Source: Heliocybe sulcata (taxonomy: Eukaryota > Basidiomycota > Agaricomycetes > Gloeophyllales > Gloeophyllaceae). From it: 64,000 nucleotides of DNA. Below are positions 34,342-59,192 of this stretch, piece after piece. A program made the position numbers and the translations under genes. Under the pieces are notes generated by a model. The model was given only the letters and a program-made list of their open reading frames with translations. It was not told the origin of the DNA and did no database searches. Within the stretch, counting starts at the first letter, position 1; each line of letters begins with the position of its first letter. The stretch lies in assembly GCA_004369045.1 (NCBI GenBank), contig ML213533.1:171723-235722 (forward strand), written 5' to 3'.

Positions 34342-36661
34342 CTATAGGAAGGCATCTCGAGCAAGATTGCCCTGCAGGAACATCAACACGAGCTAGAACA
34401 TACACACCATTACAAGCACGCACCTTGACTTCCTCGAAGTTCTTCACCGCCCTGTCGAGATCCCACCCATTGCTCTGTAAGCACTCCACGGCGAACTTGA
34501 CGTTCAACCCAGTCCGCTGACATATTTGCAATACGAGCGATCGCTGGGGCTCCGGCTGCATTCCAACATGGAAAGGACGGCAACGACGACCCTTGGTCAA
34601 AAATCGACGAAGACAATACACACAGGGGCCACTTACGATTTGGGAGAGCTCTTGCTGTACTTCAGGCGGGATTTGCGACAACGAGAAAGCAGGCAGAGGA
34701 TCACCATGCTGCACCCTCATGGGACCCGGCTTCCATGCCTCAGGGCTCGAATAACTCCGCACCACCAACTGGTCCGACATGATCATGACATCCCACCCAT
34801 TCAGCTTCGCTCTCGAGCCCTCCGGAGCCGGTGCAAGAATGAAAGACCGGTCAAAACTTCTTTCGCCACCAACGGGTTCTGGAAAAGCAATATGGTTCAA
34901 CGACAGTAGCCAACGGTACACATGGAAGCCACTTACGTTCCGTAAACTGTCCATGCACACTCGTAAACAAACTCATCCCCGCACCTTCCCCCACCGGCCA
35001 TGCATCCACACAAAATTTCTCCGGCGACCCCGCAACATCATGCCTGCTCCCCGGCAACGCACACATCGCACGTACAGCCTCCTCGCTCCCCACATGCAGA
35101 CTCTTCACCATCTTGTCCAGCCCACCCGCCATCCGGCTCAAATTCCTTGACCCGCCGTGCCCACCAGCCAACCAAGGCGACCACTCCAGCCTCTTCTGAT
35201 TCGGCATCTCCTTCGAATACTGGAAGCCCTGCATACGCGCGCGAGTAGGTATTGCGGTGTTCGCGGAGAAGGAAAATGTCGCGCTGGGATGGTACGCGTC
35301 CATGAGCGAGGCGCGCTGGTTGTCATAAGTCGAGAAGAAGCTGAGGATATCGATTAGATGCGTGCTCTGGCGGGCATATCGGAGCTACTCACCGGGCAAG
35401 GAAACCGCTGACTATCGAGGGCTCAACGCCGGTGATGAACGAACCCTGCATGTCGGCAGGGAAGGTCGTCGCGGCAGGCAGCTTAGCAGAGGCTGTTGAC
35501 GACGAGGCTTGCGGCGCATCAAAGGAGATGACTGTCATCGGCTCTCGGTCAAGCACCGTTAGCGATGGGAATCGGCGCCCGATTTCACTACGTGAGGTGA
35601 GCGACGCCACATGACCGATCCGAGTCTGATACATACCCCCTGTACTTGTCACCCCGACCGTTCTTGTACTCCAGCTCTCGGAGCGGATTCCCTATCAAAA
35701 TGAGCTCTTGCAATTGTTCCATTTTATGGTTCCGAGACGAGAAGTTGTCGAGATCTCGCCACAGTTGTAGGTTGTTATTCTCAAGAGAGAGATTGACGAG
35801 ATTGGGGAGATAATGAGGTAACGATGTTAAGAGCTGTCCCTGTGAGATGTTGTTGTTGGCGAGGGAGACCGTCTTGACCTGAACAGAAATGAATTTTATA
35901 ACAGAAGACTTTGTTTATCGACGCCACTTACCTCGGGTTTGAGCTGTGACGCAAGCTTGAAGATAACAGAGGCTTCTCGTAGAGATGATCCAGGGGCGCC
36001 TGGCGGCACCAATCGCGATCTTCGTATGATATCATCGTCGAGCATTCGCTGCAAGGCAATGAGCAACCGAACAAAGACATAGGTCGCAACCACGCACCTC
36101 CAGATTCAAGAACTGTGCCTCCGCGTTGTACCTGCTTTTAACGAACTCTCTCCAAACATCAACAGCCTTCTTCGATACAGTCGGCGTGCGCGGCTCCAGG
36201 CTCGGCTTCCCCGTCACAGCAGAGACGGCATTCCTTCGCATGCGGCCCACAGCCGTCGGCCGCGCAGCGCCCCGTATAGCGAGTGGCTCTGCACCTGTAA
36301 CGCGGGCAGAGAGCTTGAAGAGAGTCGACGACGAATGAACAACGTAAGCTAGCTGTTTTCATGGAGAAGGGGGGGTGAAGCGAGCACAGGGCAAGGGCGC
36401 GTGCAGTCCTGCACTGGCAACATCTTACAGGGAGATAAAAACAAGTCGCATATTTACCATAGATGTGCGGCTGGGGCCCGGCGTGTGATCTTTGTATGCA
36501 TCAATGGGCCGGGGACGGTGAGCACGGTGTTTGGAAGCGCCCTTGCGACCGCCAGGCTTGTCCGAGGCATCGCGCATGCGCTCGTCGCGGTCGATGAGCC
36601 CGGCACCGCGAAGAGCGCTAGACGCGATGGCGCGAGTACCGGTGATTTGTGTTGAGGTCAT
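34342..36661 (-). CDS. mex67: mRNA export factor Mex67 (NXF1/TAP family)
   Basis: Carries mature mRNA through nuclear pores by binding FG nucleoporins, normally with Mtr2. The ATG (plus-strand 36659-36661) opens [20 protein letters not shown], a basic N-terminus with [14 protein letters not shown]. Next come [20 protein letters not shown] and leucine-rich repeats ([48 protein letters not shown]), then [18 protein letters not shown] leading into the NTF2-like domain ([60 protein letters not shown]). The end is a UBA-like TAP-C domain: [25 protein letters not shown], intron, GNLARDAFL and TAG at plus-strand 34342-34344. Domain order is diagnostic of the family. Several short introns; apparently intact. 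Confidence 0.9.
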
Positions 36662-37995
36662 CGTTCTTGACGATGGCAAAGACGAGTACGAATCGGAGAG
36701 ACGACAGTGACGGATAGAGTCAAGACCTAGCCTTCTAGATGGGTACGGGCGGGTCCGAGCTGAGTCTCAATATGGATGTCGGAGTTCTCATATGGGCAAA
36801 ACGTCTGGGAAACGGTCATGAAAGTGTCCTGGGCAGCAGCCGTGTGCAGTTGACTTGTATGTATGATCTTCACTCCGGATTAAAGAATAAAACGTATGGG
36901 ATGACAACTGTGTAGGACCTACTGACTATCAGCTTTAAACAAGTTACGCGCTCACAGTCATTGTCCCGATATGGCCACTTTGGCATATCCTCTCCCGTTA
37001 CTTTCATACTGGACGCCACTTCGCAATATTGATATTTCTTCTGTCTTACTTTCATTATTCCCGGTTCGTACTTGCATGCGTGTTGTTGTCTCAGCATTTA
37101 TAAGCAAATATCCACACTCTTTCCCTTTGCCTCTCTCCATCTCCTGCCGTCGCCCATGTGTGTCCCTCAAGTGTTGCCCTGTCCCTGTCTGCTTCCACTC
37201 CCAGAAGACGCTCGGAACTAATGGTCTCTGTAAAGATTAGATGACACTCAAGTTGATGAGTTTCCGTTCCTTAACAGCGAGAAATCATAGTTAACCTGTT
37301 CAGGGTCCCGACAGTACTTACTGCTTCTGGTAAAGACAGGATCCACGACTTTCCTCATCATCTATTTCAGTCAAATGCTCACAGTGGTCTCAGCGGCGTT
37401 TCCAATCATAGACGCGTCGCCTATGTGTTATGTGATAGCAGGCATGATTTTCCTCAGGCAATGAGTAGCTGACCTCAAAGTCGTAGGAGGTTTCGAAATG
37501 TACTGTTTCATCAAGGCACGCAACAAGTCGTTTCGGACCCTGCCATCTTGTTTTACACCAGAATTTACTGAGAATTTACTGTGATTTAGCTGAAATGGAC
37601 GGGGTACTGAACACCCGCCACAGCGTGCCTTATTTGCCATTGTCTGTGGTAACGTTACAGTCACCGCAGTTCTGTCACGGTTGCATTCGAACAAGCGCCC
37701 GTGAAATACGTCGCAGCTGGGAGACCAGACGCTGCGTCAAGGGAATGGTGATGCGTAGGATATAGAGGAGTGTTAAAGATATACAAGAGGCCTGGGGCAC
37801 CACCGCACAGAATTTGTGGTAGCACGGTGAGCGCGTGCCATCTACCGGCAGACTTAGACGCAGTTCTCACGGAATAAAGGTTTGTTCTGCACCGTGACGG
37901 CTCCGCTGGTGTACTACCGTCTTGGGGACGTCTACGTTCTGATTTCGACTTTATAATTTCGTCGGCGGTTTCCTTATTTCGAGGAGGGGCGCGCC
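36662..37995. other. 1.3 kb intergenic region between divergent genes
   Basis: Separates the divergent starts of Mex67 and the AT-hook protein. It presumably contains both promoters. No gene or repeat recognised. Confidence 0.5.
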
Positions 37996-40020
37996 ATGGA
38001 CCACCCGCAGTATTACCAACCTCTTTCTCATGCCCTGAACCCTGTCTCAACCAGCAATCGGTCACCTCAATATCAGAACTACAACTCCCACGCTGCATCC
38101 GCTAGTGGTGCGTCTCATGCTGCCAATGGCGCCGCTGCAGAGGAAGACGAGGAGGAGGAGGAAGACGTAGTCGAGGAGGAGCTCTCCGGCAACACACGTC
38201 GCAATGCTGATGCCAGCACTCCCGTGTCGCCGGAAATTCAGACCAGGCAGACAGGGTATGTAGCATTCATTCACAGGGTGGTGGCGTCTGCTGAATTGTT
38301 ATTCAAAGTCCAACATCAGGGGGGACCGTAACGCAAGCTCCGGTCGGTCAGCAGCCCCAGCCGCAGGCACAGGTTCAGCCTCCTGAACCGCCTAAACCCG
38401 TACCTGATCCGTCCTCTTATGCCAAACGACGCCCAGGTAGGCCCAAGGGATCTAAGACAAAGAAAGCGCAGCAGACAGAAGTTCAAACAACTCAGGCTCC
38501 TACGTATTCATCGTACTACGCCTATCAAACGCCGGTTCATGCCCCTTTACACCCGACGGGCCCTGGCAGCGCTCCACCGCTACATCCAAGCGTTAACGAG
38601 CATAATCAGCAGTACTATGAGTTTCAGTGGCGAGTCCTTAATCTGTGTGCAGAGTTCTACGGAGCTGCAGAAGAGCTAGTTGTGAGTATCTAGCCACCGA
38701 GTACTTCGTGCCGCCGCTCAGAACATCTGCAGAGCAAAACGCCGGCTCTGGTTCTTGCGCAGTGCTACGGGCTCGGGACAACAAGTCCAGTAGACCCCTT
38801 GGCTATTCTTACTGAAGCCAAAAGGAACTGCGACCTTCTCGTAAGTCAAGGCCCACATTGGTAGTAACTTCCTTTCTTTAATCACCGGGACCCAGCTCGC
38901 AAATCCAAGTGCACTTCTGACGCACCCGCCGCCGCCAATGTACCCTATAATGCCCATGTACGCCCCATACCCACAACCCGCACCAGCCGCGCCGCAGACC
39001 GTAACTCCCACCGCCACGACGAGCCAAGCTGCGACCACGACCGCAGCCGCAACCAATCCAACCACAGCGGCCTCGACTACAACTACTAACAACTCGGTAA
39101 TTACCAATCCCCAATCCTTTGTCCTTTCTCTCAGCGGTGCACAGTCTCGTTACCCCACCGCACCGTACTACCAGTACGCTGGCCCGTACCAGCCCGCCAC
39201 GCAAGCGACGTACTATACGACTACTTCGACTACCGGGAGTGCCTCTGCGACTATTGCGAACCCCTCTTTGAGCGCGGGAGCGGGAGGTGGGCCTGCCACT
39301 GGAGGGAACTCAGGGACCTGGTCAGATGAAGAGACTGAGCGGTTGAAGAGGCTGGCGGAGCAGAGTAAGACCACTGGTGGGTCGGGGGACATTGAGTGGG
39401 ACTGGGTCATCAATCAGTGGGGAAACAGCAGGACTAGGTCAGTCGGCTCGATCTGGTTTTTGCTCTTTCATTTTCCTAACTGTCTATACAGGCATCAGAT
39501 CCTCATAAAAGCCACCAATCTCGGGCTAAAAGAGAGTTCCGGGCGTGGTGTGAAGAGACGTCGGGAGACTGAATCGGGCACAGGCGGCACGGCGAGCCCC
39601 GCACCTGCGCCCGCGTCAACTAACGATACTTCCGGCCCTCCAGCGAGCTCCACCTCGACATTCCAAGTATCCGTACAGCCCGCGGCGTCAGCATCCCCAG
39701 CGGGCTCAACCCCAGCGTCTACCCAGCCCTCGCCGGCTCTGCACCACCCGCAGCCGCAAATCTCTCCCGTCATGCAAAACGTCCAGCCACCCGCCTCAAG
39801 CAACCCGTCGGCGCACCATCTTCCGTGGCCGATGCCTACAGTCGCCTCGACCAACTCGCCTGTCATCGCCGCGGCGTCGACGGAGGCGCCGAGGCAGAGC
39901 TATTACCGCCCGCGGCCGAACCAGTCTCCATCTATGTCGACTGCAAAGCCGCCTTCGAGCTCAGGCGCGGGCGTGAACCATCAATACATGTATCAGTCCA
40001 GTGGCGGGCAACGGAAATGA
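37996..40020 (+). CDS. AT-hook and SANT/Myb-like chromatin-associated protein
   Basis: Likely DNA-binding nuclear protein. The ATG at 37996 opens MDHPQYYQPLSHALNPV. Then: an acidic block (EEDEEEEEDVVEEE); after an intron, Pro/Gln-rich sequence and an AT-hook-like KRRPGRPKGSKTKK that should bind the minor groove of AT-rich DNA; YYEFQWRVLNLCAEFYGAAE; a long low-complexity Pro/Tyr/Thr/Ala region; and a SANT/Myb-like segment WSDEETERLKRLAEQSK with IEWDWVINQW and, across an intron, RTRHQILIKATNLGLK. A nuclear-localisation-like GVKRRRETE follows, then a Pro/Ser/Ala-rich tail ending YMYQSSGGQRK with TGA at 40018-40020. At least five introns. No specific regulator assigned. Confidence 0.75.
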
Positions 40021-40746
40021 GGAGGGTTGTTTTGCTCGCGCATACCCGATCTTTTCCGACTACTAATCTAATTGTTTTCTTGGGTGTCTGATTGCTTGTG
40101 ATTGTTCGGGACACACGGTTTCGTGACGCAGTGTTGCTGGAATATGATAGGAATGCTCAGAGTAGGCCATGGATGGATCCCACCCTAGGGCTCTCTAAGG
40201 AGCGAAGTATTGCAATTGTTCCATATGTAATTCCATACTGTCAGATTATCCTTATTGATTCTTCGCACTTTCGTGATTGATTACGATTCAGGTCAATCCC
40301 ACTATATATACAGGAAAGAGCCGTTCTTGTTATACATAGTCTGCCTCACCTCACCCATGGGGAAAATCGACATACTTCCTGTCGATAACCCGAGTGATGT
40401 AAAAGTCATCCACATAGATATATCGTAGTCCGACTTACAGTTACTTTGCTGAAGCTGCCTTGCTCGTCTCTGTACAGGTGTCTGGTTTACTTCACGCGAG
40501 CAGCAAGTCCGAGCACATGGCTGACACCGCCACCTCTCTTCTGCGATTCAGACAGATGCCTGCTTGTTTGAATCTCAAACCCACTTTGAACGATGGCATC
40601 CAGAATCCGTCATCAAGTCTTTAAGCTTTAAAACTTTACACGCAGCGGCTTCACAGGCCCTTCTAAAAATCGTATCCCTCTCTGCTGTGTATCGCAGAAG
40701 AGCTCATGGGACCATCTGCAATCATATTTCGAAACACCGACTGTAT
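40021..40746. other. Intergenic region
   Basis: Convergent 3' flanks of the AT-hook gene and the gag/dsRBD-like gene. Nothing recognised. Confidence 0.45.
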
Positions 40747-42100
40747 CTAATGCGCTCTCTTCCTTGCGCGTCGCGAGTATTTCCTCCACAGGTCAGGATA
40801 TTTGGCTTCTAGAGATTGGACGACGTGCAAATAGCACTGCATCTCCGCGTTCACCTTGTGCGCTGCGATACCCATGCCTAACGGCCGTCCGCCGACGTAC
40901 ATTGTCGCTATCCGTTCGCCCGACGCGCACTGACTTCGCGCGAATGTGATTTCAGGAGCCGTGAGCTCGAATTTCTTGCAGTAGTAGTCCATGAACTCTC
41001 GGGCCCGGACGCAGTCAAGTATGCTACCATCAGAGAGTGTTCTGGATATTTTGGCCCGCTTTTCCTGAGACGGCGATAAGGTATTCAGATTCGAGGGAAA
41101 GAAGAATAGATTAGACAGGCCTACCGAGTTCAGTTTCTGAGGCTCTTTAGGGCTGTTTTTGGTAACGGCATCGTTGTTTTTAACCTGTTGAGAAGAAATC
41201 GAGTGCCGACTCAGTGTGACTCTGATGTTTGGTCAGATGAAAGGAAGATCTAGCATGTGGACTCATGAAGCACGCGCACCCTTGAGAGACCTGCTCGTCG
41301 GGCGTCACAATTCTATTGTCATTTCGCCTTTGCACACCGTGGTATTGAGGTACCTGTTCCGTCGGCCTGGAAGCCTTGGTGGACACTTGCACGGAGCAGA
41401 CGGCAGGAGATGACAGTTGGGTCTCCGCCTTGGACCGAAAAAGGCGTGACTGATAAACGGATGTTATCTGGTTCGTGACGTCTTCAGGGTCCGGATTGGT
41501 GAGCAAATGCGTTGTAATATAATCCATGGATGCGGGAACGGAATGGCAAAGAATGAGCGCGAACGCCCCGTCAGATATCTGAGCGCCCAGGGAACGGGCC
41601 ACAGCGAGTCTTCTGTGGAGTTCCACCCAGTGTTCCTCAAGATCATCGCCCTCCCTATACCGCTTTGCCTTCAAGTGTTCCTCGGCGTTGAAGGCTGCCA
41701 ACCGCCCGCGGTCCTCGTAACGCCTTACTAGCATACTCCATATGTGGGATGCCGCCGACATTTCGGAGCCAATACCAAGCCCGACCGGGTCATTGATGTT
41801 GAGAATGAGGATGGCCTTAGCGAGGGCATCGACGCGATCCCACTTGTCGGTATTTGCATCGTTAGCTCGCGGTCTTTGTGAGGTTCCATCGAGGTGATGC
41901 TGCAGGCCTTTGACGCCGCATAGCGCCCAAATACGAAGTTTCCAATTGAGCCATCCTGCCGAGTCACCCGGCCTAAGGCGCTGGGTCTCATCAAGAATGG
42001 GGACTTGTTCCGTAAACATGGCAGGAGTGACGGAAGGAATGCAAGTCGAGACGTTGCTTGCTATATTATCTGAGGAATACTCAGAACCAGGCAGATGCAT
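40747..42100 (-). CDS. Copia-type gag domain joined to a dsRBD-like domain
   Basis: The 5' exon (ATG at plus-strand 42098-42100) encodes a Ty1/Copia gag (UBN2-like) domain: GWLNWKLRIWALCGVKGLQ, HHLDGTSQRP, KWDRVDALAKAILILNIND, IWSMLVRRYEDRG, LKAKRYREGDDLEEHW and HSVPASMDY. No reverse transcriptase, integrase or protease follows. A phase-0 intron (donor after PDEQ, acceptor CTCAACAG) can join it to VKNNDAVTKNSPKEP; a second intron leads to RAKISRTLSDGSILDC. The final domain has EFMDYYCKKFEL, MYVGGRPLGMGIAAHKVNAE and CYLHVVQSLEAKYPDLW. This last domain is homologous to the ends of the genes at 42377 and 58430 and looks like a dsRNA-binding domain. The stop is TAG at plus-strand 40747-40749. All parts are open. 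Whether gag and dsRBD form one transcript is inference; they could be two adjacent remnants. Confidence 0.5.
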
Positions 42101-42376
42101 TGGCCAGTATGGCAAGGACTGCCGAGGTGGAGGGTAGAGGTAGAGAATGTACTGCAGGCGGTTAGCAACAAAGAATAGGAGAGGTTGGATGGGGGGTCGC
42201 GGCGCACAGCCACGCAATCAATATGGATTACCTTCTGTACTCAAGAACTTCGACAGAATCATCCGCCAACCCAAAGCATATACATATGCGCGTACAACAT
42301 GTAATTGTATACCCTAACTAATTTGATTACTCTATCGCCTTGGAGCAGAGTGCGTTTATAGCAAAGTATCTAACGT

Positions 42377-43283
42377 TCAAATCGACGGTGGCAGACCCTG
42401 CCCGTGAACGGGGCTGGCCATGTCATGAAAGTCGAGGCAACCAGTCTGGGTGAAGGGTTGCTTCTTCTTGGATCTATTGGACGCAATGATCATGAAGTCG
42501 TCCCAAGTTTTGGGATAGCGGCCGTGGAGATTTCTGACGACATCAAGATAGCACTGCTTCAGCGCATTCTTCTTCTGCGACGCGGTACCCGCGCCCACAT
42601 GCTGTCCCCCGAAGTCCATCACGGCTTGCCAAGCGTTTGGTGCACGCACGGGGATCGGGTTGTATTTAATGTGAGACGGCGGAAAGCGAAACTGGCGGCG
42701 GTAATACTCCACGAAGTGTCTAGCGCGCTCGTAGCTGACTTCAGTGCCGTCGGGGAGCATCATTGCAGTCGAGAGTCTGACGTCCGCAATCCACTGGGAA
42801 GGGTTTCGTCCGAGCTAGGATGTCCCATATCAGATCATTGGTTGAATGGTAGCAAGGACGGACTTGCCGAGTTTCTGTCGTGGAGCTGTGACAGAGCGGA
42901 TAGAGTCGCTGGGCACTCAGCCTCTCGTCTATTCACAGAGGCACCTTGTCCGATGGCGGGCGGATCGATGGAGTCCAATGCTTCAGCACTGACTTGCCCT
43001 CAAACCTAGTGCATCATATCGTGCAGGGCCCAACGCACCTTTTACACTTCCGCTGGTCTTCAACAATGGCGATACAGTCATACTGCGGCCGCCTTTCCTC
43101 ATTTCTCTTCACAAGTGAAGCAACGGCAGTCTTGGAATTGGCCTGTTGATGAGACTCGAACCCGCCATCGACGGACTTGTTCGGCATAACAATCTTTTGT
43201 GCAGGTCGGGCTGTTGCGCCAGCTATCTTCGAGCGTCTAGACTCCGGCGCACGCGAGAGCGGGGCGGATCTAGAGGGAGGCAT
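42377..43283 (-). CDS. dsRNA-binding-like protein (duplicate copy A)
   Basis: Multi-exon gene. The ATG (plus-strand 43281-43283) opens MPPSRSAPLSRAPESRRSKI, continuing to KTAVASL before a GTGAAG donor. A middle exon has REAECPATLSALSQLHDRNS, matching the helix FVTRKEAKRLAALSALLRLH of copy B, a pattern seen at the end of dsRBDs. The last exon reads RLSTAMMLPDGTEVSY, HFVEYYRRQF, APNAWQAVMDFGGQ, VGAGTASQKKNALKQ and CYLDVVRNLHGRYPKTW, again dsRBD-like (GxGxAxxKKxA then Leu-rich helix). The tail is Lys-rich with TGA at plus-strand 42377-42379. Substrate and role are unknown; such pairs of domains occur before helicase cores, but no helicase is present. Exon borders are approximate. Part of a segmental duplication with 58430-59192. 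Confidence 0.5.
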
Positions 43284-43885
43284 CCTCAGCGTCTCCTAGT
43301 GAGATGAGAAGTTGGGGACGGGTGCAGGGAGCTGTTTCACGATTTCACCACTCGCACGGTAAACGTTGGATACAGGAATCGAGCGCCGCACTCAAGCTCC
43401 AAAGCGTCCGGGCGTTTTAGAGCCGCGCGTTTCCGGCGTGGCTATCAGGCTTTCGACATTTGCTATTTCTGTCCGGAGACAAGAAGTAAGCTGTCCAACA
43501 AGAATGTTCACATCCGCACCAGAACCTTCTGGTCTCTGTGGGGAACGCGAGAGGCATGATTTTAGAAAAATAGCCGCGCAATGAGAAACAGACATTGCAC
43601 TGTCATGCTGTCGTCTGAACCAGATCCTGCCTTCGATCAAAGCAATTATAGCATGGTATTAGTTACAAAATAGTCACAGCATCGGATCGTATGCAAGATG
43701 ACATATCATATGAGATATTACAGGTGACTCACGTCGCCGCTATACCCGCTCGTCCCGACTCCAAAACTACTGATCAGTCATGAACAGCCTCTTCAAATAA
43801 TCCGCCGCCGCCTGTTTCACCGACGCATCGACGGTCGGATTCGACAAGAGGTCCGTCGCGAGCGCTGTCCGCTGCTTCACCTTCT
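42495..43885. repeat. Segmental duplication, copy A
   Basis: Same-orientation match to 58440-59743. It covers most of the dsRBD-like gene, its upstream region, and the last exon end of the SANT-like gene that starts at 45267. Example shared blocks: GCAAGATGA-ATATCATATGAGATAT and CTTCAAATAATCCGCCGC. Confidence 0.85.
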
Positions 43886-45267
43886 CCGCATGCCGCGAGT
43901 GCTCCCACTCCGCCGCTTCCCGCTCCTGCTTACGCTGCTCCGTTTCCCTCCGCTGCCGGCTCTCTTCCTCGTCTCTTGCCTCCTTACGCTTCAGATACTC
44001 CAGCTTCAGCTTCGCGTCTTCCGCTTGCGTCTGCAGCAGGTGCACATAGGTCGTCATAATATGCTGCGTCAATGCTGTCAGCTGCACCAGCTCTGAGGTC
44101 GAGCTACGGTTGGAGACGGGTGCGTTAGTTGGGGGTACCATTTGCGGGACGAGGTATTGGGGATTTGGATTTGATGCGAACGACATTGGGTGTGGTACGG
44201 GTATTGAGGAGGCACCGTCGCTGGAGAAGGTGCGGTCCATTGGGGAAGGGTCAGGATTCTGTTGCGCCATACCATTGCTGAATTCATGACCGTTGAGCTG
44301 TTCCTCGACATCGGCGTCATCATCACCCATGGTCACCGCGGACGACGGGCCAGTAGTGTTTTGCCGATTAGTGGGACGAGTGCTTATGGGGTCGCCATGC
44401 CATCTGGGTGTAGAAACTGAGTATTCGGTCGAGGAGCATACAAGATCACACACACCGCCCATGGAATAAGCTATACCAGCCGATAGTATGCCAATGGTCG
44501 ACTATACGTGCATTGATGTTGCCGACCTCAGTACCCGACTTGCGAGCAGCCGATAACCTCTTCTCGTATTCCTTCAGTCTGTCAGCTTGGCTGTTCATGT
44601 TGATGGTCATGGGACCCATGCGCCGAGAGAACATTTCGAACGCGTAGATCTGTTTGAAGACGTTGAATCCGCGCTCGTAAGCGCCCTTGAGGGCCTGCAT
44701 GGTCTTCTTTCCTCCAAAGAGCTGCTCGGCGCACTAGACAGATATCAACGTCAGACCTCAACACGTTAATTACATAGCTGAGTATACATACTTCCCGGAA
44801 GCACGCATTCTTACTTGCACGTAGTGAGTTCCAGTGGTCATCCTGGCCCGGACCCATCAGCCATGCAAAGAACTTCGTCTTCTCATCATCCGTCCAATGC
44901 TTCGGTGCACCCATGACATAATCCATCTCGTTATTCTGCATGTCCAAATCACCATCTTCCTGTCCGTCTCCAAACATCGAGTTATCTTCCATGCCGCCGT
45001 CCCCGTCCCGCCGCCTCTTACCTTGGCTGCTATTCATCCCATCCATTTCCTTGCGCTTCAATCCGGCATGAGGATCCCCACCCGGCGACACTTGCATGTC
45101 GTGCATCACAGACCGCGAACCAGAGGCGTCAGGGTGAGTCTGGGAGGCTCGGTTGTGGTCATCCTGGAAGAGTAGAGGGTCGGGAGAGTGGGATAGCCTG
45201 AAATGAGCCTGAAATGGTCCCCTCTGCTGCAGGCTCACAGCTCCCGTAAGGTGCGGTCCGAGTCCAT
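43767..45267 (-). CDS. SANT/Myb-like protein with C-terminal coiled coil
   Basis: Probable nuclear protein. I place the start at the ATG on plus-strand 45265-45267: MDSDRTLREL, then a short intron to LLSHSPDPLLFQDDHNRASQ. A nuclear-signal-like SSQGKRRRDGDGG and an acidic stretch follow. The SANT/Myb-like domain is HWTDDEKTKFFAWLMGPGQ, DHWNSLRASKNACFREV, intron, CAEQLFGGKKTMQALKGAYE and RGFNVFKQIYAFEMFSRRM. After a Pro/Ser-rich linker, the C-terminus has a strong coiled coil (about 43800-44060, EYLKRKEARDEEESRQRRET) and ends AAADYLKRLFMTDQ with TAG at plus-strand 43767-43769. It differs in sequence from the SANT-like protein at 37996. The last 120 bases of coding sequence were duplicated to 59630-59750. 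Intact; target genes unknown. Confidence 0.72.
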
Positions 45268-45736
45268 GACTTAGGTCCTACAAGTCACTCAGAATCCTGA
45301 TATCACCGGGCAGTTCGCACTCCTACCCTTAGGTTATGATCCATTGGCATACGCGCCTGCCCTGCGTTGAACTGTACATTGGTGTGGTCGCTGTGCAGCA
45401 CGGAATATCAGACATGACAGTCGGAGGATACGAGACACAAAAGTACTTTGGAAGGTCGACAGGCATGGCTCGGACCGTCCGGTGGTCGAGCGCTTGCGTG
45501 GTTCGCTGGCTCGTTGGCAAGCGACCCTGATGCTTGCCGCAGTGGCGTGAACTGTTTACTTGTTTGGTTCGCAGTGCGCATCAGACCCGCACTCACCATG
45601 GTTCTCGAGGCCTATTGGGCCAATTGGGCTATAGCAGGCCAGCAGTAGCAGAAAGCAGAGTAATATGGCCTCTGGAAGGCATTACGAACTAGGGATACGG
45701 TATTTACAAACGCAGAAGCTCTCGTTACGGTTCGGG
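45268..45736. other. Intergenic region
   Basis: Upstream of the SANT-like gene and downstream of Vps39. No feature recognised. Confidence 0.45.
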
Positions 45737-48700
45737 TCATCGCCTGATTTCATTCGACCTGCGCGCAAACGCCTCACGACACTGATAGTGCGTCACCTCA
45801 CCCCTAATGGAAATTTAATATGCAAGAACCTTGAGGAGCTCAAACCTGACTCACCTTGGTGCGTGCACAGCGATGACGCTGTTCCCCAGTCGCTTATGGC
45901 ACTGCGGGCATCTACCGCAGCGCATCACCGCTCAGCATTCAGATCAAGCAGATGAACAAAGTACGCACATCCTGGAATCCGTCACTTTCACTCGATTACT
46001 CTGCAGCACCATCAGCTTCCTCGAAATCTGTTCATTCCTCGCCTTGCTAATCTCGCGCACGACATGCGAGTCAAGAATCGGCACACGGAGGGCTTCCACG
46101 AGGAACGCCCGGACGTCCTTTGCGGTGACCAGTGGTGGAAGCAGTTGGAGTGTCTCTGCAGCATCCAGACGCGGTCCCTGTCTTGCTATCAGGTCCAGCG
46201 CAGGATGCAAAAGATCCGCAGTCGTCTGGACGGTAGGCCGCAGATATATCCGCAGTAGAGTCAGGAAGACGCCGCTGGTAGGGGAATCTGCTTGGTATAT
46301 ACGCTTGCAATATCTGAGAGTTCAATGAGTATCCGTTTCAAATCATGAGCCCAGATCGCGCGTACGATTCTGCTTTGACGTAGTCCTGCAGACGGTAGAC
46401 ATATATCTCCAACGCATGCTGGTGGCGTCCGAGCTTCCCCAGGAGGATAGCGCGAGCTTCAAACAGATCTACGACCATGACGTAAATACATTGAGATAAC
46501 TGGTTATTGTAGGAGAGCTGACCTTCCATAGGAAGTAGGCCAAAGATGTGTTCCACTCGGAAATAGTCATTAGTGTCCAGGAAGCGCAGGAACTTGTCAT
46601 AGTATTCCACCCGTGTCTCTGAGATGGTCGCCACGTCAACAAGCAATTCTTTCAGAACACCTAGAGACTGGTAATACTCACCTTCTTCGCCGACCTCCTT
46701 GGCATGGAGGGTAACATGCAGGTAGACCTCGGCCAACCGATCATGGTACGCCGGATCCCGTTCTTCCTTCTCCCCAATCAGGTATTCAAGATACCGCGCG
46801 CATATCCTCGGGTCGATGGTCTCCAAGAAATCCGCAACAGACTTCCGCGGCAACTCGGCCTCTTCAGAGGTGAATATCTATCCCGAAGGCAGATATAAGA
46901 GACGCTCTCGCAGACAAAGATAAACTCGTACCTGGAATGCCATATCGGCATCTTGCTTAAACAGCCACCGCGAGGACTCGAACACTCGATCCAAATATTC
47001 CGGCCCAAGCCGCTGCAAATACGTGATCGACGGCATAAGCTTATCCTCCATGTCATCCTCCCTCTCGCTGAGCTGCCTCAGTAGCGCCAGCGCCTTCTCA
47101 TGCATCTTCCTCCCATTATACAAATAAATCAACTCCGAGAATTTCTTCGTGCCCATCAGTTTCCACCTACACACACGACGAACGAACGACGCACCTCACG
47201 CGCGCGCAAAAGCTCCTCCACCTCCGAGACCTCACACCAATTCTCTGTGCGGCACAGCGGGCCCAGTAACCCCGGCCGGACGATCAAATACGACTTAAAC
47301 AATGCCGTGTCCACCACCTGCGCAAACCGCAGCAGCTGGTCAGGCGTCAGCGACGACAGGGGGGCGTCGGGCAACGCAAAGAGCTCCTCCGTCGACGCTT
47401 CAGATAAGGGTGAGATCTGGTGTGCCTGTGACGGGGTTATGTGCACGGCGGCGAGTGCCGCGGCGATCTTGGGCCGCCGGTCTGGGAGGTAGCGCAGGAG
47501 GGTCTCGACGGACCGGTGGAAGCTGTCTGCGCGCCTGAGTCAGTGAAGCGATGATGACGGAGAGCGAGGCAGGGCGTACCCGGCTTCTGCCTACGCCGGA
47601 CGCTAACGATGGACGCAGTCTCGGGATCCTTCGACCCTGACGGCATGAACGCATCCAAACTCGTCTTCAACTTGTCCCTGATGGTACCAACCGGCGTCGC
47701 AGTTCTCTCGGGCTCGGGACTCTTCGTATGTACACTCGCCTTATCGCTGTCAGCATCCTTATCCTTATCCTTCACCACAGTAGGGGTTGTCTCTTGCTGC
47801 ACTTTCCGCGGCCCACCGAAGAGCGGTATCCACTCGTCCGCCGGTACGGAGAGCCGTCCCGCAACGCTCTCGGGGTACAGAGCGACCACTTTTGCCGGGT
47901 TGACTTCGAGGGAGATGAATGTGTTGATCGCGTCATCGTAGTTACCCGCGCGGAATTGAGAGACGGCGTGTAATGCACGTATGCGTGCTACTGTCTTGTC
48001 CTAGGAGTGTGTTAGCTACGCAGTGTGTTCGATAGACATATGTCAGGACATACCTTGTCTGGGAGCGCAGAAGAATCTATAGAGTCCAGTAGTGCCAGAG
48101 CATCAGCATACGACCCAGCCTCGACCAACTCGTCAACCTGCTCCATCCAGGGCCTCATCCTGAGTAGCCACACAGAACTGCCCTCGGACAAAGCTGCATT
48201 GCGGTCAACAGGTGTCGTGACAAAATACGACGTCGCTTTCGCGGTCGAAGAATGCGCCAGTAGGCGGATGGTGCTGTGGGGACTGGCATTCGATGTGAAG
48301 GGGAAGGTGATGGTTTGTACGGAGGACAGCGAGATGCCGGAGCGGATTTGGAGAACGGAGGATTGGGGAAGATGGGATGCGGCGGCGTCGGAGGGGGGTG
48401 GCGCGATGGTACCCGGAGGAAGGGCGGAGAGAACGTAAGGCTTGACGTAGGCTAGAGTATCGATTGCTCATTTGGTTACTGTAAGATGCACTAGGGTAAA
48501 CTTACCGAATTCGTCTGGAGGACCAGGCCACTCGATGCTCGCAGTGCGCGATGGCTTACCATCAGACCCAAAAAAGATGCCCGAATCTGCGCTCGCCACG
48601 TCGACATTGGCATCCTAATCACCAAGAGTTAGACGCACCGTCTTTCGCAAGCAGCACCTCCTTGTCACTGATCGCTGCTAAGCAAGGTTTGGCCTTGGCT

Positions 48701-50468: not shown

Positions 50469-50893
50469 AGACTCTAAATCGGCAGCGTGGGCATAACGAC
50501 AAGACTGTCGATGGTGCTGTTGGCGGCAATGCGGATCATCGGAGGGACGAGCTTGCACATAAAAGTGTACTCTCGTGGGGTACGGAGTGTGTTGAGGCGA
50601 GGCAAGAAGAATTAGAAATCGAGGGTTTCGCGAGAGCTGCATTAGTGAATAACGGCTTGGGCACTGGGAATGGAGTACTGCGAGTTGGCCAGAGTGAGAG
50701 GGTAGAGCTGCGCCCACGGGATACAGTATTTGAAACTAGCCTATCCGAGACGAGTATTGGGAGTATAGCGACCGAAGGGAGAGACATCGATCCTCTGCTG
50801 CCTGATAAGGTCAAGTATTTGACTTCGGGTATGTTAGTACACAGGACGTATCCAAGGGGACGTCCCGGAGTTTGCAAGAAGGAGACAGACTAG
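50469..50893 (+). other. Open frame of about 140 codons without recognised homology
   Basis: Open from after a TAG at 50466 or so to TAG at 50891-50893. There is no ATG near its 5' end. It contains CVEARQEELEIEGFARAAL and SLSETSIGSIATEGRDIDPL. The complementary strand is also largely open, so this may be chance or a gene remnant. It lies at the edge of the rearranged FunK1 block. Confidence 0.2.
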
Positions 50894-50929
50894 GAGATCA
50901 GAGGGGATGGGTCGGGATGTATCAGGTAT

Positions 50930-51060
50930 CGAGCTAGCATTTGACGGCAAAAGGTCACGAACCGGATTGCGCGAGAAGCAAATACATAAGCTGCTCCGTG
51001 TTTTCAATGTCGGGGCTGTTGTAGATGCGAATAATCAGGATTAATCAGGACCGGCTGGGC
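50930..51060 (-). repeat. Short duplicated coding-like fragment, copy 1
   Basis: On the minus strand it reads RIYNSPDIENTEQLMYLLLA, then QSGS. It matches 56440-56545, which reads RIHNSSGVENTSELMYLLLA. Source gene not identified; stop codons interrupt it here. Confidence 0.6.
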
Positions 51061-51219
51061 AAGCGAGAGAAGAGAGATACCTATCAGCTCGGCGTTATAT
51101 GCTCGCAGCTCGTGTGCGGTCTGTAGCTAGTACAGCGCGATCGCAGTTAAGCGCCATCGACTCGCATGCGATCCGGAACAAGGGCATCATGGAAAGTCAT
51201 ACTACGTACCCTCCTTGAA

Positions 51220-51400
51220 TTCGGACTCACAGTAGGTAATTCATGGCGCGGTTTGCAGAAGTATGCATGCTACATGATAGGCTAGGTCGGTGAATTCGAG
51301 ACGCCACACCGGGGCCGCGAGGCGCATCGCTGATGCACGTGACCGGCCATCGCGTCCTCTTCCCTTGTTTTTTTTTCGCTCTGAGGTGAGTCGTGTCGCA
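51220..51400 (+). repeat. FunK1-unit upstream region, copy A (TATA and first exon missing)
   Basis: Homologous to 56850-57080 and, inverted, to 53950-54190 (shared: GAATTCGAGACGCCACACC-like block, TGATGCACGTGACC, GTGAGTCGTGTCGCAGG). After AATACTAA the other copies have a TATATAA box and an ATG exon; here that segment is absent. Confidence 0.65.
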
Positions 51401-51459
51401 GGACCGCGGCCGATAACAAATACTAAGTGCTGCCCCTTCTTTACGCAGCTACATCCAGC

Positions 51460-52347
51460 CCATTGCGAGGCCTGCAGCAAAGCAGACTCGGAGGTGCTTC
51501 ACCGGGACCTGAGTCCGCGCAACGTCTTATTTGTGGCCGGTGAGAGCGGGGACGTCCATGACATCTTGACTGACTGAGACCTGTGCAGATACCTTTATAT
51601 TACTATGGACAGTGAGGGTGCGCGCCTCCGAGGTCGGACGGTAAGCGAGCATAGCACATGTTTGTGGTAGCGTGCTCAATGACGTTTGAACATCAGGGAA
51701 CCTGGCAATTTGTCTCTTGTCAGCTCCTTATCAACCCACGCAAGATTCCCGCGCTCCAGGACGATCTCCAGTCTTTTTTCTGGACTCTTCTCTATACAGG
51801 CCTACATCTTATCCCCTGTTCTCTATCGCGAATGCGTCTGGCGGACATGCTAAAGACAGTCTTTGACGAGTCTCGATGGGATGACGGGAAAGGTAGAACT
51901 GTCGGTGGGAGAGAGAAGTATATGGTGATATGCAATGGCACCTATATTCTTCCAGACACTCTCACTGGGGAACCACCGATTATTTTTGGTCCTCCAGCAA
52001 CTCCACTGAATGATCTGGTGAAACCCCTCTGGCGCCTTTTCTGGGCTTGGGAGTTGTGCCAAATTCAGATGGACGAGTCTCAGGAGCTTGTGCATCCGAC
52101 TATCAAGTCGAACGCTGACAAGCTCTTGACCTCTGAGGCGATCCTCCAACTCTTCAAGGATGCATACACCAATCCCGACTGGAGCCACAAGATTTCGGAC
52201 AGGAAAGAAGGGCTTGTTCCAGAGGAGGGACACGGTAGCTCCTCCAAACGTGCCATCGCAGAAGAGAGCGAGCAGCGGAGGAAGACTCAGCGCAAGTCAC
52301 AGATCGGTGACGCTACGAGTTCTCGGCTGGGGATGATGGACAAATAG
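51460..52347 (+). pseudogene. FunK1-type kinase C-lobe, copy a (disabled)
   Basis: Fragment of the fungal-specific FunK1 kinase family. The catalytic-loop exon reads CSKADSEVLHRDLSPRNVLF with HRD and Asn intact, followed by ESGDVHDILTD. It is then broken by TGA at 51575-51577, where copy d has GGG, within the expected activation-segment Asp motif. The exon would end RLRGRT before GTAAGC. The last exon (51697-52347) is fully open: GTWQFVSCQLLINPRKIPAL, DDLQSFFWTLLYTGLHLIPC, FDESRWDDGKG, ATPLNDLVKPLWRLFWAWEL, LTSEAILQLFKDAYTNPDW, and a basic tail. The promoter-proximal ATG exon present in copies b and d is deleted. The kinase N-lobe is absent. Probably not expressed as a functional protein. Confidence 0.7.
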
Positions 52348-52544
52348 TAAGTGCTCGGTGCTTTCACGTACGCCTCGAATCTATTGGACATCCATACGGT
52401 TCTTTGTATCACACTTTTCCCAATCCGTTCACTGCAGGTTAATTCCGGTTACCATATCAATTCTTTATCTTACCTCGCCTCTGGGGGGCTCCAAAAATTT
52501 CTACTCATAGCGTTGTGCATTTATGTCTCACAGCCTTCAGTCCG

Positions 52545-52855
52545 CGCAGTATCGGTTGGTGTTTAATGTCATCTATTGATTTTACTGCCTGCGGCGTGGA
52601 TTCTGAGGCCTTCAATATGCTATTCGCACTTAAGAACTCCGGAGGATTTGCTTCCCTACTCAAGGCATATTTACGGGAGCTTGAGCAAAGTAATTCGGTA
52701 ACCCAGAACATATGCATATAGGATATATAGACAATGATCAAATTTTACATTCTGTCACCTCGAATCAGACTGCAACTGTAGCGAACCATCCAACCTGTAA
52801 ATCGGCGGTAGCGGTGAACGGTACTCCGAGGCTAAGGAAGGCGGAGTGAACGGAC
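52545..52855 (+). repeat. FunK1-unit 3' flank
   Basis: Matches 58150-58420: GCGGCGTG-ATxCTGAGGCCTTC, then TGTCACCTCGAATCAGAC, AACCATCCAACCTGTAAATC and GGCGGTAGCGGT. It marks the shared end of the duplicated unit. Confidence 0.8.
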
Positions 52856-52948
52856 AGACGTGTGCAAAACACATGCGCACACAAACACGATCGATTCAAG
52901 GAGTACGTGAAAGCCTCGAGCACAAATGCAACCTTCCCTAGAGCATAC

Positions 52949-53888
52949 TCACTCATCGAGCATCTCCAGCCGAGAACTCGTAGCGTCGCCGGTCTGGGAC
53001 ACGCGTTGAGTCTTCCTCTGCTCCTGGCCCTCTTCTGCGTCGGCACGTTTGGAGGAGCTGCCCCGTCCTTCCCTGGGAACAGGACCTTCTTTCCTGTCCG
53101 AAATCTCTTGGCTCCAGTCCGGATCGCTGTATGCATCCTTGAAGAGTTGGATGATTGCCTCAGAGGTTAAGAGCTTGTCAGCGTCCGACTTAATAGTCGG
53201 ATGCACAAGCTCCTTGGCAACATTGTGGTACCACTCCCAAGAGCAGAAAAGGTGCCAAAGGGATTTCACCAGAGTATTGAGCGGAGTTGCGGGAGGATCA
53301 AAGACAATCGGAGTCTGCCCAGCGATACTGTTCTGGAGAATATAGTTGCCTTGGCTTATGATGATATACTTCTGGATCCCGCCGACGTAATAACCCAAAT
53401 CGTCGTCCCATCGAGCCTCGTCGAAGACTTTCATTAGCATATTCGCCAACGGCATTCCCGATAGAGAGGAGGGAATGAAATATAGAGCTGTGAGGAGAAG
53501 AGTCCAGAAATATGACTGGAGATCGTCCTGGAGCATGTGCGTCTTGCCTGGGGTCATGAGCAGCCAATGAGAGATGAACTGCCAGGTTCCCTGATGTTCA
53601 ACGTTCAGTTGTTGTATTGAGCGTAATTCCGACAATGTGCACTAAGCTTGCTTACTGTCCGACCTCGAAGGCGGGTGACGTCGCCGCTCTCGTGGGCTAC
53701 AAATGAAACGTTCTGCGGACTCAGGTCTCCGTGTAGCACATCGACTTTGTTGCAGGCTTCCCAATAAGCCAAAAATTAAACGCATAAGTAAGGCGCAGCA
53801 CGGCACAACAAAGACTGAGTTCTGACATACCGACGAGTTTGTCATGCATCATCTTGACTATTGCGGACTGAGAGTGCGAGGCGGACAT
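52949..53888 (-). CDS. FunK1-type C-lobe-only protein, copy b
   Basis: A complete short gene can be built from three exons: 53831-53888, 53656-53756 and 52949-53590, with GTATGT and GTAAGC donors, giving 266 residues. It starts MSASHSQSAIVKMMHDKLV, then ACNKVDVLHGDLSPQNVSF, then directly THE RLRGRT segment and GTWQFISHWLLM. The FunK1 N-lobe (ATP-binding Gly-rich loop and Lys) is absent. In the catalytic loop HRD is HGD, and 20 codons are missing between GDV and RLRGRT compared with copy d, removing the activation-segment Asp motif. The C-lobe (DDLQSYFWTLLLTALYFIP, FDEARWDDDLGYYVGG, LTSEAIIQLFKDAYSDPDW) is intact, with TGA at plus-strand 52949-52951. A TATA-like box lies 46-55 bases upstream. 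If expressed it should be catalytically dead. Confidence 0.6.
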
Positions 53889-53933
53889 GCTAGTAGATGT
53901 GAGGATGAGGAGGTATCGGCACCGTTACCCTGT

Positions 53934-53943
53934 GTTATATAAG
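53934..53943 (-). promoter_or_regulatory. TATA-like box of FunK1 copy b
   Basis: On the minus strand CTTATATAAC about 50 bases before the ATG. The same element with TATATAAG precedes copy d at the same distance. Confidence 0.5.
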
Positions 53944-54329
53944 ATTACTATTTGTAATCGGCTGCGGCCCTGCGACTCGAGTCACCTCAGACTTGCCGTG
54001 TTAAGTTGTAGAAACAAGGGAAGACGCGATGGTCACGTGCATGAGCGAGGCACGTGTGGCGTCTCGATCGAACTCACCGACCAAGCCTATCATGTGGCCC
54101 TACTCTGCAACTGTGGTATGAGAGCTACTGTGACTCAGAATTCACGAGGAGTACGTACTATGACTTTCCGTGCGTCCTGTTCCGGACCGCACGTGAATCA
54201 ATGGCTCTAACCGCGGCATTGCGCTGTACCAGTCACAGGCATCGATCTCTGTCCTCTATCCTAACCAGTCTACTCGAGCGACTCTTCGGCTGCTGCGTCT
54301 ATAGATCCAGTTCAACTTCGATACCACAA

Positions 54330-55152
54330 CTAGCCGACAGGATCCTCCACTAGTCCGCACAACGTCCTATTCGTATCGCACGAGACCGGCAAAGTGCAGG
54401 GCATATATTGGTTGACCGGGACATATGCAGCAGGGTCGATACCATGCAGAGAACGAGGGTGTCCGGCATCGAGGTCGAACGGTAAGTGAACATGGTACAT
54501 GTTTGCGGTATTGTACTCAATGACATTTGGACGTCAGGGAACCTGGCAGTTTATGTCTTATCCGCTACTCATGACCCCGTCCAAGATGCATACTCTCCAG
54601 GATGATTTCCAGTCATCTTTCTGGACTCTTCTCTATACGGTCCTACATTTCATCCCCTGTTCTCTATCAAGAATATCGTTGGCGAATATACTAAAGATAG
54701 TCTTCGATGAGGCTCGGTGGGACGACGATTTGGGTTGTTACGTTGGCGGGAACGAAAAGTCGACTATAATCACGCACGGCCACTATATTCTCCCATACTC
54801 TGAAACTGAGCGAGCTCAAATTGTCTTTGATCCTCAGGCGGCTCCGCTGAATAATTTGGTGCAATCTCTGTTGCACCTCTTCTGGGCTTGGGATTGGTGC
54901 TATAGTCTGATGAACAGGAAGAGGCAGCTTGTGCATCCAACCATCAAGTCGGATGCTGACAAGCTCTTGACGTCTGAGGTCGTCATCCAACTCTTCAAGA
55001 ACGCATACACCAGTCCGGAATGGAGTCACAACACCGCGGACAGCTCCGCTAAACGCCCTAACGCAGAAGTGGGCGAGCAGTGGAGGAAGACTCAAAGAAT
55101 ATCCCAGGCCAGCGACGCCACGAGCTCTCGGCTGGAGATGGTCGGCGAATAA
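54330..55152 (+). pseudogene. FunK1-type kinase C-lobe, copy c (disabled)
   Basis: The catalytic-loop exon (about 54330-54480) is broken: the frame reads LH, then a stop where RDL should be, and is then shifted, although residues matching LVDRDICSRVDTM and RGRT can still be followed. The last exon (54538-55152) is open: GTWQFMSYPLLMTPSKMHTL, DDFQSSFWTLLYTVLHFIPC, VFDEARWDDDLGCYVGG, LTSEVVIQLFKNAYTSPEW, ending LEMVGE and TAA. No ATG exon or TATA box like those of copies b and d was found. Head-to-head with copy b, sharing an inverted upstream region. Confidence 0.65.
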
Positions 55153-55522
55153 GCAGGGTGTAGTGCTCAGTGCTTCTGCGTGCGCGTCGAATCTAGTGTG
55201 TATTTATGCCTCCCTGTATCTCATGCATCCTAGTCCGTCCGGTATTGGCTGATGTCAATGTCACTTATTTGTGCCTCCCCGATACTGTGCGAATTGTAGC
55301 TGTAACAGACGTTCGCACAGAGATCTGTACGCCGTGTCCCGCCTCTATCATGGCCATTGCACGTCTATATTTTGGATTGCATACGTGCCAGCTTGTGTAC
55401 TAATAATATTGGACCTCAGTCAGTTTCAGTATGCCGTCATGCGTCTTGAGTCGCAGGAGCAAATGGCATCAGCTCTCAACCGCGCACTCATGGATACCAA
55501 CGCAAGGTCGCAGTCGCATTAC
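55153..55522. other. Intergenic stretch between pseudogenes
   Basis: 3' flank of FunK1 copy c and the decaying 3' end of the Rix7-like fragment. No intact gene. Confidence 0.4.
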
Positions 55523-56400
55523 TCAACACGCATACCTACCTCTCAGCCCACGTACCTCCGCCTCTGCGCCGCAAGTACTCACACTCGACCCAACCTTCTC
55601 CACCGTCTTCACAAGATCACCCACCTCGACGGCCGCCTCCTTCGCCAGCTCCGCTTCCGCTTCGTCCATCTCCTCCAACCGCCACACCGCCCTCAGCGCC
55701 ACCACTCCCGTCTCGCTCACAATCGCCGCCAGATCGGCGCCACTGTACCCTTCACATCGTTCCCTAACCAGCTGTTCAGCCTGCATTGACACGTCCTCAG
55801 AGCCGAGCGGCACCTTGCGCGTGACGGTGCGCATGATATCGACGCGCTCGTCCGCGGAGGGCAAGTCCACGTACAGGAGTTTGTCAAGCCGGCCTGAGCG
55901 GCACATTGCGGGGTCGATCATATCGTGGTGGTTCGTCGCGGCGAAGACGTACACGCCCTTGCGGGTGTCCAACCCCGTTCATCGAAGAACACGACACACG
56001 GTGCTGAAGCCCGTGCGCGAGTAAATACCTGCCTCACGGCCCTCTCACTCTCTCGAACATCCTAAAGTAGATGGACTCAATTAGGCAGAGCCAAATGAAG
56101 TTAATCCCAACGAGCCGACCTTATTTAATGGCTGCGGTCCCTGATCAGATTCGTCCTGCTCTCATTCGCAATCGCCTTCGTGAGCAACATCTTCCTGCAT
56201 CCGGGCAGGCTCCACATCAACACCCAGCATCCCGCCTCCATCCCCACCGCAACACCTCCGGCCTCCGTATTGGCTGCCAAATCACCATGTGAAGCTCCTC
56301 TCAAAGACCATCCAGAGCAGTGACCTCCGCCACGGTGACGTACGGCATCGTCACGAAGCCTGCGCGCTTGAACTTTGAGGGCTGGACTTGCGAGTCGAAC
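55523..56400 (-). pseudogene. Rix7/NVL-like AAA-ATPase fragment
   Basis: Resembles the second AAA module of Rix7/NVL, an ATPase needed for 60S ribosome assembly. Reading 5' to 3' on the minus strand: PALKVQAR-type linker, remnants of a strand preceding Walker A, then a Walker A-like GCRKMLLTKAIANESR in which GCGKT has become GCRKM. A block with stops and shifts follows where Walker B should be (about 55975-56100). Then comes a well-kept part: [53 protein letters not shown] and CEGYSGADLAAIVSETGVVA. There is no N-terminal half, no start codon and no intact frame. A partial duplicate, probably derived from a functional rix7 elsewhere in the genome. Confidence 0.8.
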
Positions 56401-56439
56401 TAGGAGCGCAGAGGAGCTGGGCCGGGAAGTGTCGAGCCA

Positions 56440-56545
56440 TTGGACAGCGAACGGCCACGAACCAGATTGAGCGAGGAGCAAATACATGAGCTCGCTGGTA
56501 TTTTCGACGCCGGAGCTGTTATGGATGCGGATGACCAGAAACCGC
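56440..56545 (-). repeat. Short duplicated coding-like fragment, copy 2
   Basis: Partner of 50930-51060. It reads RIHNSSGVENTSELMYLLLA then QSGSWPF on the minus strand. Joined upstream to the Rix7-like fragment and downstream to the FunK1 unit d. Confidence 0.6.
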
Positions 56546-57106: not shown

Positions 57107-57114
57107 TATATAAG
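57107..57114 (+). promoter_or_regulatory. TATA box of FunK1 copy d
   Basis: TATATAAG, 46 bases before the ATG at 57160, in a region conserved with the upstream side of copy b. Confidence 0.6.
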
Positions 57115-58420: not shown

Positions 58421-58429
58421 GACGAAGCG

Positions 58430-59192
58430 CTAACTCTTTCTGAACTCTTCACAAATTTTGGGATGGCGGCTGTCAAGGTTTCGGACGACATTCAGATAAC
58501 GCTGCTTCAGCGTATTCTTCTTCTGCGAGGCAATACCTGTGCCCACCGGCTGTCCTGCGAAGTCCAGCATCGCTTGCCAAGCGTTCGGTGCACGCTGGGG
58601 CCTCGGCTTGTATTTGATGTGAGGCGACGGCGGGAAATAGAGCTGGCAGCAGTAATACTCCGCAAAGCGCTTGTAGTCGACTCCAGTGCCATCAGAGAGC
58701 GTCAATATTGTGGTCGAGAGTCTGAAGTCCTTCATCATTCCACTGAGACGGGCGCCTTTCAAACTACATTACATCATTGGCTAGACGATAGTGAGAATAG
58801 ACTCACGAAGTCTCTTTCGTGGAGGCGTAACAGAGCGGACAGAGCCGCTAGGCGCTTAGCCTCCTTTCTGGTGACAAAGTCGCCGTTCCCGATGATGGGC
58901 GGATCCACGGAAACTCAGTGTCAGTGGAGCTCTGACTTGTGCTCGAATCAATGAATGATAATGTGCTGGACCCAACGCACCTTTCATACTTCTGCTCGTC
59001 CGCAGAAACGATTAACCAGGTGATTAACCAGGTGTCGTGAATGGAGCCCACCCTTGTCCGCCTAGCGTATGTAGTTTTCTTCATTCACAGGCTCGTTCAG
59101 AACAGGAACCTCACGTTCAAGCTTTGCTGTAGCGCCGGCTATCTTCGACCAGCAGGCGGGCGCGAGAGCGGCGCGGACCTGGAGGGAGGCAT
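58430..59192 (-). pseudogene. dsRNA-binding-like gene, duplicate copy B (damaged)
   Basis: Copy of 42377-43283. The start context is kept (ATG at plus-strand 59190-59192, MPPSRSAPLSR), but in that frame a TAG occurs at plus-strand 59139-59141 because bases are missing relative to copy A. Later parts remain open: FVTRKEAKRLAALSALLRLH, LSDGTGVDYKRFAEYYCCQL, APNAWQAMLDFAGQPVGTG, ASQKKNTLKQRYLNVVRNL. Copy B also has four extra bases at the start of the last exon relative to copy A. It ends EEFRKS at plus-strand 58430-58432, where the duplication stops and FunK1 flank begins. The dsRBD-like helix is better preserved here than in copy A, so both copies may have diverged from an intact parent elsewhere. 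Confidence 0.6.

Follow-up and report, generated by a model that had tools for sequence, protein, structure and literature searches.

Domesticated retrotransposon capsids are best known from animals (Ty3/gypsy type); among fungi, yeast relics such as DRT2 are the best-known cases. DRT2 of Saccharomyces cerevisiae is a domesticated Ty1' gag that includes only the C-terminal domain of CA and whose restriction activity was shown by experiment (PMC10951436, available part). Arc is of Ty3/gypsy origin (PMC6525542, available part). The locus described here includes a capsid exon, a usable intron and an exon for a dsRNA-binding-type domain (dsRBD) that has its own splice acceptor; this anatomy is real and better than chance. 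With chances that are about even, the locus would be a young, lineage-restricted chimeric host gene encoding a capsid-dsRBD fusion. No published account of a gag-dsRBD fusion or of this Heliocybe sulcata locus was found among the titles and abstract openings searched.

The window (the whole stretch of 64,000 nt that was analysed, whose numbering is used throughout) is C31:171723-235722 of a 31.6-Mb genome (51 contigs) that we take to be that of H. sulcata, a Gloeophyllales basidiomycete. The first-pass annotation gave the right coordinates, and the whole candidate lies on the minus strand, 42100-40747 (Table 1). The predicted product is a protein of 411 aa when both introns are removed and of 431 aa when intron 2 is kept; the unspliced RNA is predicted to give a 306-aa gag. 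tRNA and Rfam scans of the 64-kb window found nothing, and seven neighbouring open frames have no Pfam family at E 0.01. The GC3 of the gag exon (0.586) is slightly under the values of nine other stretches used for comparison (0.61-0.68), which settles nothing.

Table 1. Features of the candidate locus and its paralogues in the window. dsRBD1, dsRBD2: first and second dsRBD of the helicase arrangement.
Feature	Position	Strand	Remarks
Exon 1: Copia-type Gag capsid coding exon, intact, without zinc knuckle	41280..42100	-	821 nt, ATG at 42100
Intron 1	41222..41279	-	58 nt, phase 2, GTGCGC ... CTGAC ... CATCAG
Exon 2: linker	41125..41221	-	97 nt, ~32 residues, open in the joined frame
Intron 2, or coding if retained	41065..41124	-	60 nt, in frame, without stop
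Exon 3, with copy A of the dsRNA-binding-type domain and the stop codon	40747..41064	-	Fold prediction, helicase homology
Paralogue B, tandem neighbour	42377..43295	-	dsRBD1 remnants 43166-43032 and 42978-42850; dsRBD2 42814-42461
Paralogue C, a degenerate duplicate of segment B	58430..59124	-	63% to B; dsRBD-like domain ~58744-58439

The gag frame extends from its ATG to a stop at 41182-41180, which gives 306 codons where about 300 had been announced (345 codons from stop to stop). Its Copia-type identity is given by Pfam: Retrotran_gag_2 matches gag residues 64-219 (E 1.1e-16, 61 bits vs a cut-off of 27). The nearest gags in the genome belong to Copia elements found on four contigs (C4, C19, C35 and C8; 35-37% identity), and neither protein nor DNA search of the genome found a closer copy. 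The Drosophila Copia capsid (PDB 8s41) is collinear with gag residues 40-201, with an E of 0.081 for the gag alone and of 0.0038 for a profile of the gag and three elements; the match spans both capsid halves. A zinc knuckle (CX2CX4HX4C) follows the capsid in all four of the nearest elements, and none of this spacing is found in the six frames of 39001-43400. The absence of pol on the 3' side of the gag, also claimed by the first-pass annotation, holds for the whole window: tblastn with the open frames of three Copia elements found no relic of protease, integrase, reverse transcriptase or RNase H below E 0.2, the sole window match being the gag stretch 41995-41432 (E ~1e-27). No direct repeat longer than 26 nt is found in 36500-46000. 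The locus is not an intact Ty1/copia LTR retrotransposon: a gag is present, and zinc knuckle, pol and LTRs were not found.

The two parts could be chance neighbours, i.e. a fairly recent gag-only relic of an otherwise lost Copia family that lies beside an unrelated, decaying dsRBD duplicate, the join being fortuitous and giving no joint product. This explanation is a serious one, to which a sizeable minority of our confidence goes. It bears first on how common such gags are. At least 32 Retrotran_gag_2 matches are found in the genome; for 10 of these 32, the window copy among them, no RVT_2 or rve match lies in the next 6 kb downstream. Gags that lack pol are accordingly not rare here, as chance neighbours would have it. 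An intact one is less common, which speaks against chance: just three of the ten are free of internal stops, namely the window copy, C1:124731 and C1:3401780, and the last of them lies about 1 kb from a contig end. C4:1290352 and C1:124731 adjoin runs of N, so that a pol may be hidden there. The zinc knuckle also counts against chance neighbours. It is kept at C1:124731, C20:215490 and C18:9997 as well as in the four nearest elements, i.e. in all seven other readable gags (C4:1290352 has no readable gag frame because of an N gap), and is absent from the window copy.

Two other observations concern the Copia sequences of this genome. C1:124731-125216 is another pol-less gag, with a 276-codon open frame, a zinc knuckle and an N gap upstream. 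A repeat found at 12792-14335 and 63025-64000 of the window (96-97% identical, opposite orientations, with runs of N) has a sequence that also follows the point where the open frame of the Copia element on C4 breaks off (L033 7761-9282).

Selection on the gag was analysed with a codon model (219 ungapped codons, four sequences). On the window gag branch, omega=1 is rejected (2 delta lnL 43.7, p 4e-11), synonymous change being saturated and omega lying at its lower bound. The gag thus did not drift over most of its branch. The dN/dS of the gag part, proposed as a check by the first-pass annotation, therefore gives constraint on a branch that includes time inside an element, and the test does not distinguish selection on a host gene from selection within an element. 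A neutral gag frame (273 codons) would still be open with a probability of 0.26 after 0.05 substitutions per site, which suits a recent relic, of 0.07 after 0.1 and of 0.005 after 0.2. The corresponding values for a neutral dsRBD frame (105 codons) are 0.029 after 0.3 and 0.003 after 0.5 substitutions per site; the lack of stops in the dsRBD exon, despite its mere 65% DNA identity to its source, lends some support to constraint.

Introns were searched for with a donor GTRNGN, a CTRAY branch site, a YAG acceptor and a length of 45-120 nt. A single structure with all three signals, intron 1, links the gag and dsRBD frames. A frame-joining structure appears in just 26 of 2000 dinucleotide shuffles of 41300-41065, a rarity that argues against a fortuitous join, and in 8 of 2000 shuffles of 41430-41065. 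The donor of intron 2 (GTAGGC) is weaker, and the 45 nt before its acceptor contain no CTRAY branch site. This acceptor lies at the place homologous to the helicase 3' splice site that precedes '(L)EK(K/R)'. As intron 2 is a multiple of three without stop, the frame is open whether it is retained or removed. The 'two good introns' initially described thus become one good intron, with donor, branch site and acceptor, and one ambiguous intron. The systematic intron search led to the final model of 411 aa, in place of an earlier 398-aa model in which gag was joined to VSQ at 41184.

The C-terminal part was described as dsRBD-like from the outset, and its predicted fold agrees. The AlphaFold2 model of copy A (mean pLDDT 90.5) has a helix, three strands, a helix and an additional C-terminal helix, i.e. 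the alpha-beta-beta-beta-alpha fold of dsRNA-binding domains, though Pfam dsrm (PF00035) scores under its cut-off (13.2 vs 23 bits; 25.6 for the homologous helicase domain). Structure prediction, another check proposed in the first-pass annotation, was informative for this part only: the gag exon folded alone, without an alignment of relatives, gave a mean pLDDT of 37.2 and was not interpreted. Foldseek with the copy A model gave 902 PDB matches with an E of 10 or less, of which a single one has an E of 0.001 or less. Mitoribosome chains head the list, and named dsRBDs (PKR, DRB4, HYL1, RNase III) come after them; the TM-score by query length is 0.35-0.54 in the best 50 of the 902 matches. Of the 35 positions with at least 90% conservation among the helicase rows, 25 are kept in copy A, 24 in B and 27 in the copy on contig C20. 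The ten positions changed in copy A include K71 (to V) and R61 (to P). K70 is kept; both lysines are conserved at 1.00 in the aligned helicase rows. This lysine pair, at the start of dsRBD helix 2, presumably contacts RNA. RNA binding by copy A may be weak because of K71V and R61P. The copy A frame has no ATG before helix 1 (the first ATG is inside helix 1) and therefore needs an upstream exon; the exon positioned upstream is the gag exon. An open, foldable dsRBD without a start of its own is not what chance neighbours would lead one to expect.

The source of copy A, newly recognised here, is dsRBD2 of a DHX36/DHX9-type DEAH helicase of the host. Copy A and the helicase gene on contig C1 share 65% DNA identity over 262 nt (E 2.8e-7) and 43% protein identity, and a whole-genome DNA search with copy A matched only the locus itself and this helicase. 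The latter is a 923-codon frame with helicase and HA2 domains and a dsrm above the cut-off; its best matches among solved structures are DHX36, then helicase A/MLE. Its relatives number 181 proteins at E 0.001; those named among the best 120 of the 181 are, we assume, from mushroom-forming fungi. An intron precedes the second of the two helicase dsRBDs. Across this junction, the helicase of Gloeophyllum trabeum (P0002) reads '...DRDM-LEKRK...'. The H. sulcata helicase of the database (P0001), to which the C1 helicase is 100% identical over the 200 residues searched, has a different exon end at the junction, 'DLVSASRMSQLEKK', so that the helicase junction rests on its splice signals and on the G. 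trabeum protein. Copy A starts with 'EKRAKIS' right after its acceptor, i.e. at the same place as the dsRBD2 exon of the helicase, and the gag stands in this locus where the helicase has dsRBD1. A query with the helicase N-terminal part found no dsRBD1 remnant at copy A; the copy on C20 and B keep a dsRBD1 part.

The domain is found five times in the genome: copy A, B, C (58.4 kb), the copy on C20 and the helicase on C1. The statement that it recurs in two neighbouring genes is hence correct (B and C) and extends to two other contigs. B is represented in the protein database by a 128-aa protein (P0122). The segments that carry B and C (42493-43884 and 58441-59742) have parts at 70-82% DNA identity. 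C has an in-frame stop upstream and lacks residues in helix 1; such a degenerate copy nearby fits a dsRBD duplicate in decay, as chance neighbours would require. Two other observations concern related or adjacent sequences. C20:44000-45300 encodes a 375-aa protein with two dsRBDs (P0121, in the database under H. sulcata), equivalent to the helicase N-terminal part with no helicase behind it. As its dsRBD2 has a close relative of metagenome origin (P0123), P0121 may not be confined to this genome. Mutually similar stretches are found on both strands of 50889-60073 (68-78% identity), apparently a local gene family; two open frames of this cluster (57408-58124 and 59635-60165) have no match in Pfam.

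The dsRBD part of the locus has evolved fast, again in keeping with chance neighbours. The copy A branch is about ten times as long as the median branch, and its omega (0.48-0.49) is not distinguishable from 1 (p 0.17-0.20, three topologies). In a tree of 50 dsRBD rows, A is joined to B, with two Gloeophyllales helicases (94/97), the long branches of A and B meeting; in a tree of 22 of the 50 rows, with B left out, A is unplaced. No date was drawn from these two trees.

A protein search with the 398-aa spliced model, which is 13 linker residues short, gave no match at E 0.001 among 3167 candidates. A composite profile (seven rows, the first being a 281-aa piece of the spliced model) gave four matches among the 7995 candidates scored, none with a gag and none for the copy A locus. 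These four are the C20 protein (P0121) and the B protein (P0122), which are the controls for the dsRBD part of this search, and two metagenome dsRBD fragments. Copia polyproteins lie outside the length range searched, so that the gag part has no positive control in it. The same two-domain order, which the first-pass annotation proposed to look for in related species, was thus not found among the proteins searched, where two dsRBD paralogues (C20 and B) are present. The searched proteins seem to hold B and not the copy A locus, an absence that chance neighbours would account for. The missing database protein could reflect either the filtering of transposon-like gene models or a lack of expression.

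A gag-only host gene is quite unlikely. It would encode a 306-aa capsid that ends at 41180 and poisons related elements in the manner of Drt2, the dsRBD exon being part of no functional product. The unspliced frame is indeed open to 41180, and a capsid-only restriction gene derived from Ty1' is known in Drt2 (PMC10951436, available part). Targets may exist: the Copia element on C19 has a pair of 293-nt direct repeats, 99% identical and read as LTRs, which shows recent Copia activity in this genome. With only 35-37% identity to the nearest elements, co-assembly with those is doubtful, and a gag-only gene accounts for neither the intact dsRBD exon nor the splice join. It is highly improbable that a Copia element captured the dsRBD exon to replace its zinc knuckle and survives as this sole fragment, since, although the domain order fits a replaced nucleocapsid, the whole-genome DNA search matched only the locus and the helicase, and the dsRBD exon adjoins paralogue B of the same host family, as expected for host duplication and not for capture.

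The chimeric host gene is supported by the intact gag exon, the rejection of omega=1, the rare frame-joining intron, the open and foldable dsRBD, the homologous acceptor and the absence of pol and LTRs. The absence of an orthologue and of a protein for this locus among the proteins searched, the fast dsRBD A with an omega not distinguishable from 1, K71V and R61P, the time that the gag branch spent inside an element, and the fact that pol-less gags are not rare speak against it. Domestication, as put forward in the first-pass annotation, is plausible for what is a single copy, with no orthologue in the protein searches. We infer one transcript, and a fusion that is young and confined to its lineage.

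Such a gene could have arisen as follows. The N-terminal dsRBD part of the helicase would have been partially duplicated, with B as a sibling copy, and the duplicate would have left an exon that brought its 3' splice site along. A Ty1/copia gag that lacks zinc knuckle and pol lies directly upstream of this exon in the same orientation, and the 58-nt intron would join the two into a capsid-dsRBD protein of 411 aa (or 431 aa). The capsid domain would oligomerise, and the dsRBD might supply the contact with RNA in place of the zinc knuckle; the same contact would also replace the second dsRBD of the helicase arrangement. Many weak single dsRBDs could act together by avidity and make a multimeric protein that binds structured RNA. 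The protein might also disturb Copia Gag assembly, much as yeast Drt2 acts on Ty1' (PMC10951436, available part), the doubt about co-assembly with the nearest elements applying here as well. It is unlikely that the capsid swapped its zinc knuckle for the helicase dsRBD to make a capsid-forming protein that picks out double-stranded or structured RNA, be it for storage, for transfer or for retrotransposon defence. An Arc-like role with an RNA cargo is part of this unlikely reading and has the domain content in its favour. A fungal Copia capsid with a host RNA-binding domain fused to it would demonstrate that domestication can exchange the RNA-loading module of a capsid, and would be a small test case of the way in which capsids select their RNA.

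Like DRT2, the locus is a lone capsid sequence of the Ty1/copia class, open in a fungal genome after the loss of pol. Unlike DRT2, for which the available part of PMC10951436 describes no fused host domain, it matches both capsid halves, is followed by a host dsRBD and is known from sequence alone. With Arc, dArc1 and other domesticated Ty3/gypsy capsids it shares a retrotransposon capsid domain without pol, an RNA cargo being proposed here. It differs from Arc and dArc1 in that the window capsid is Ty1/copia by its Pfam and PDB matches; the label 'Arc-like', used in the first-pass annotation, is thus loose, apt for a capsid domain without pol and not for the origin of this capsid. The Drosophila Copia capsid (PDB 8s41; PMC11835246, available part), with which the window gag is collinear, itself comes from a full transposon and has no dsRBD. 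The DHX36/DHX9-type helicase (P0001) has the same dsRBD, the same 3' splice site and 65% DNA identity; in the helicase, dsRBD1 and dsRBD2 precede a helicase core, whereas in the window locus dsRBD2 stands alone behind a capsid.
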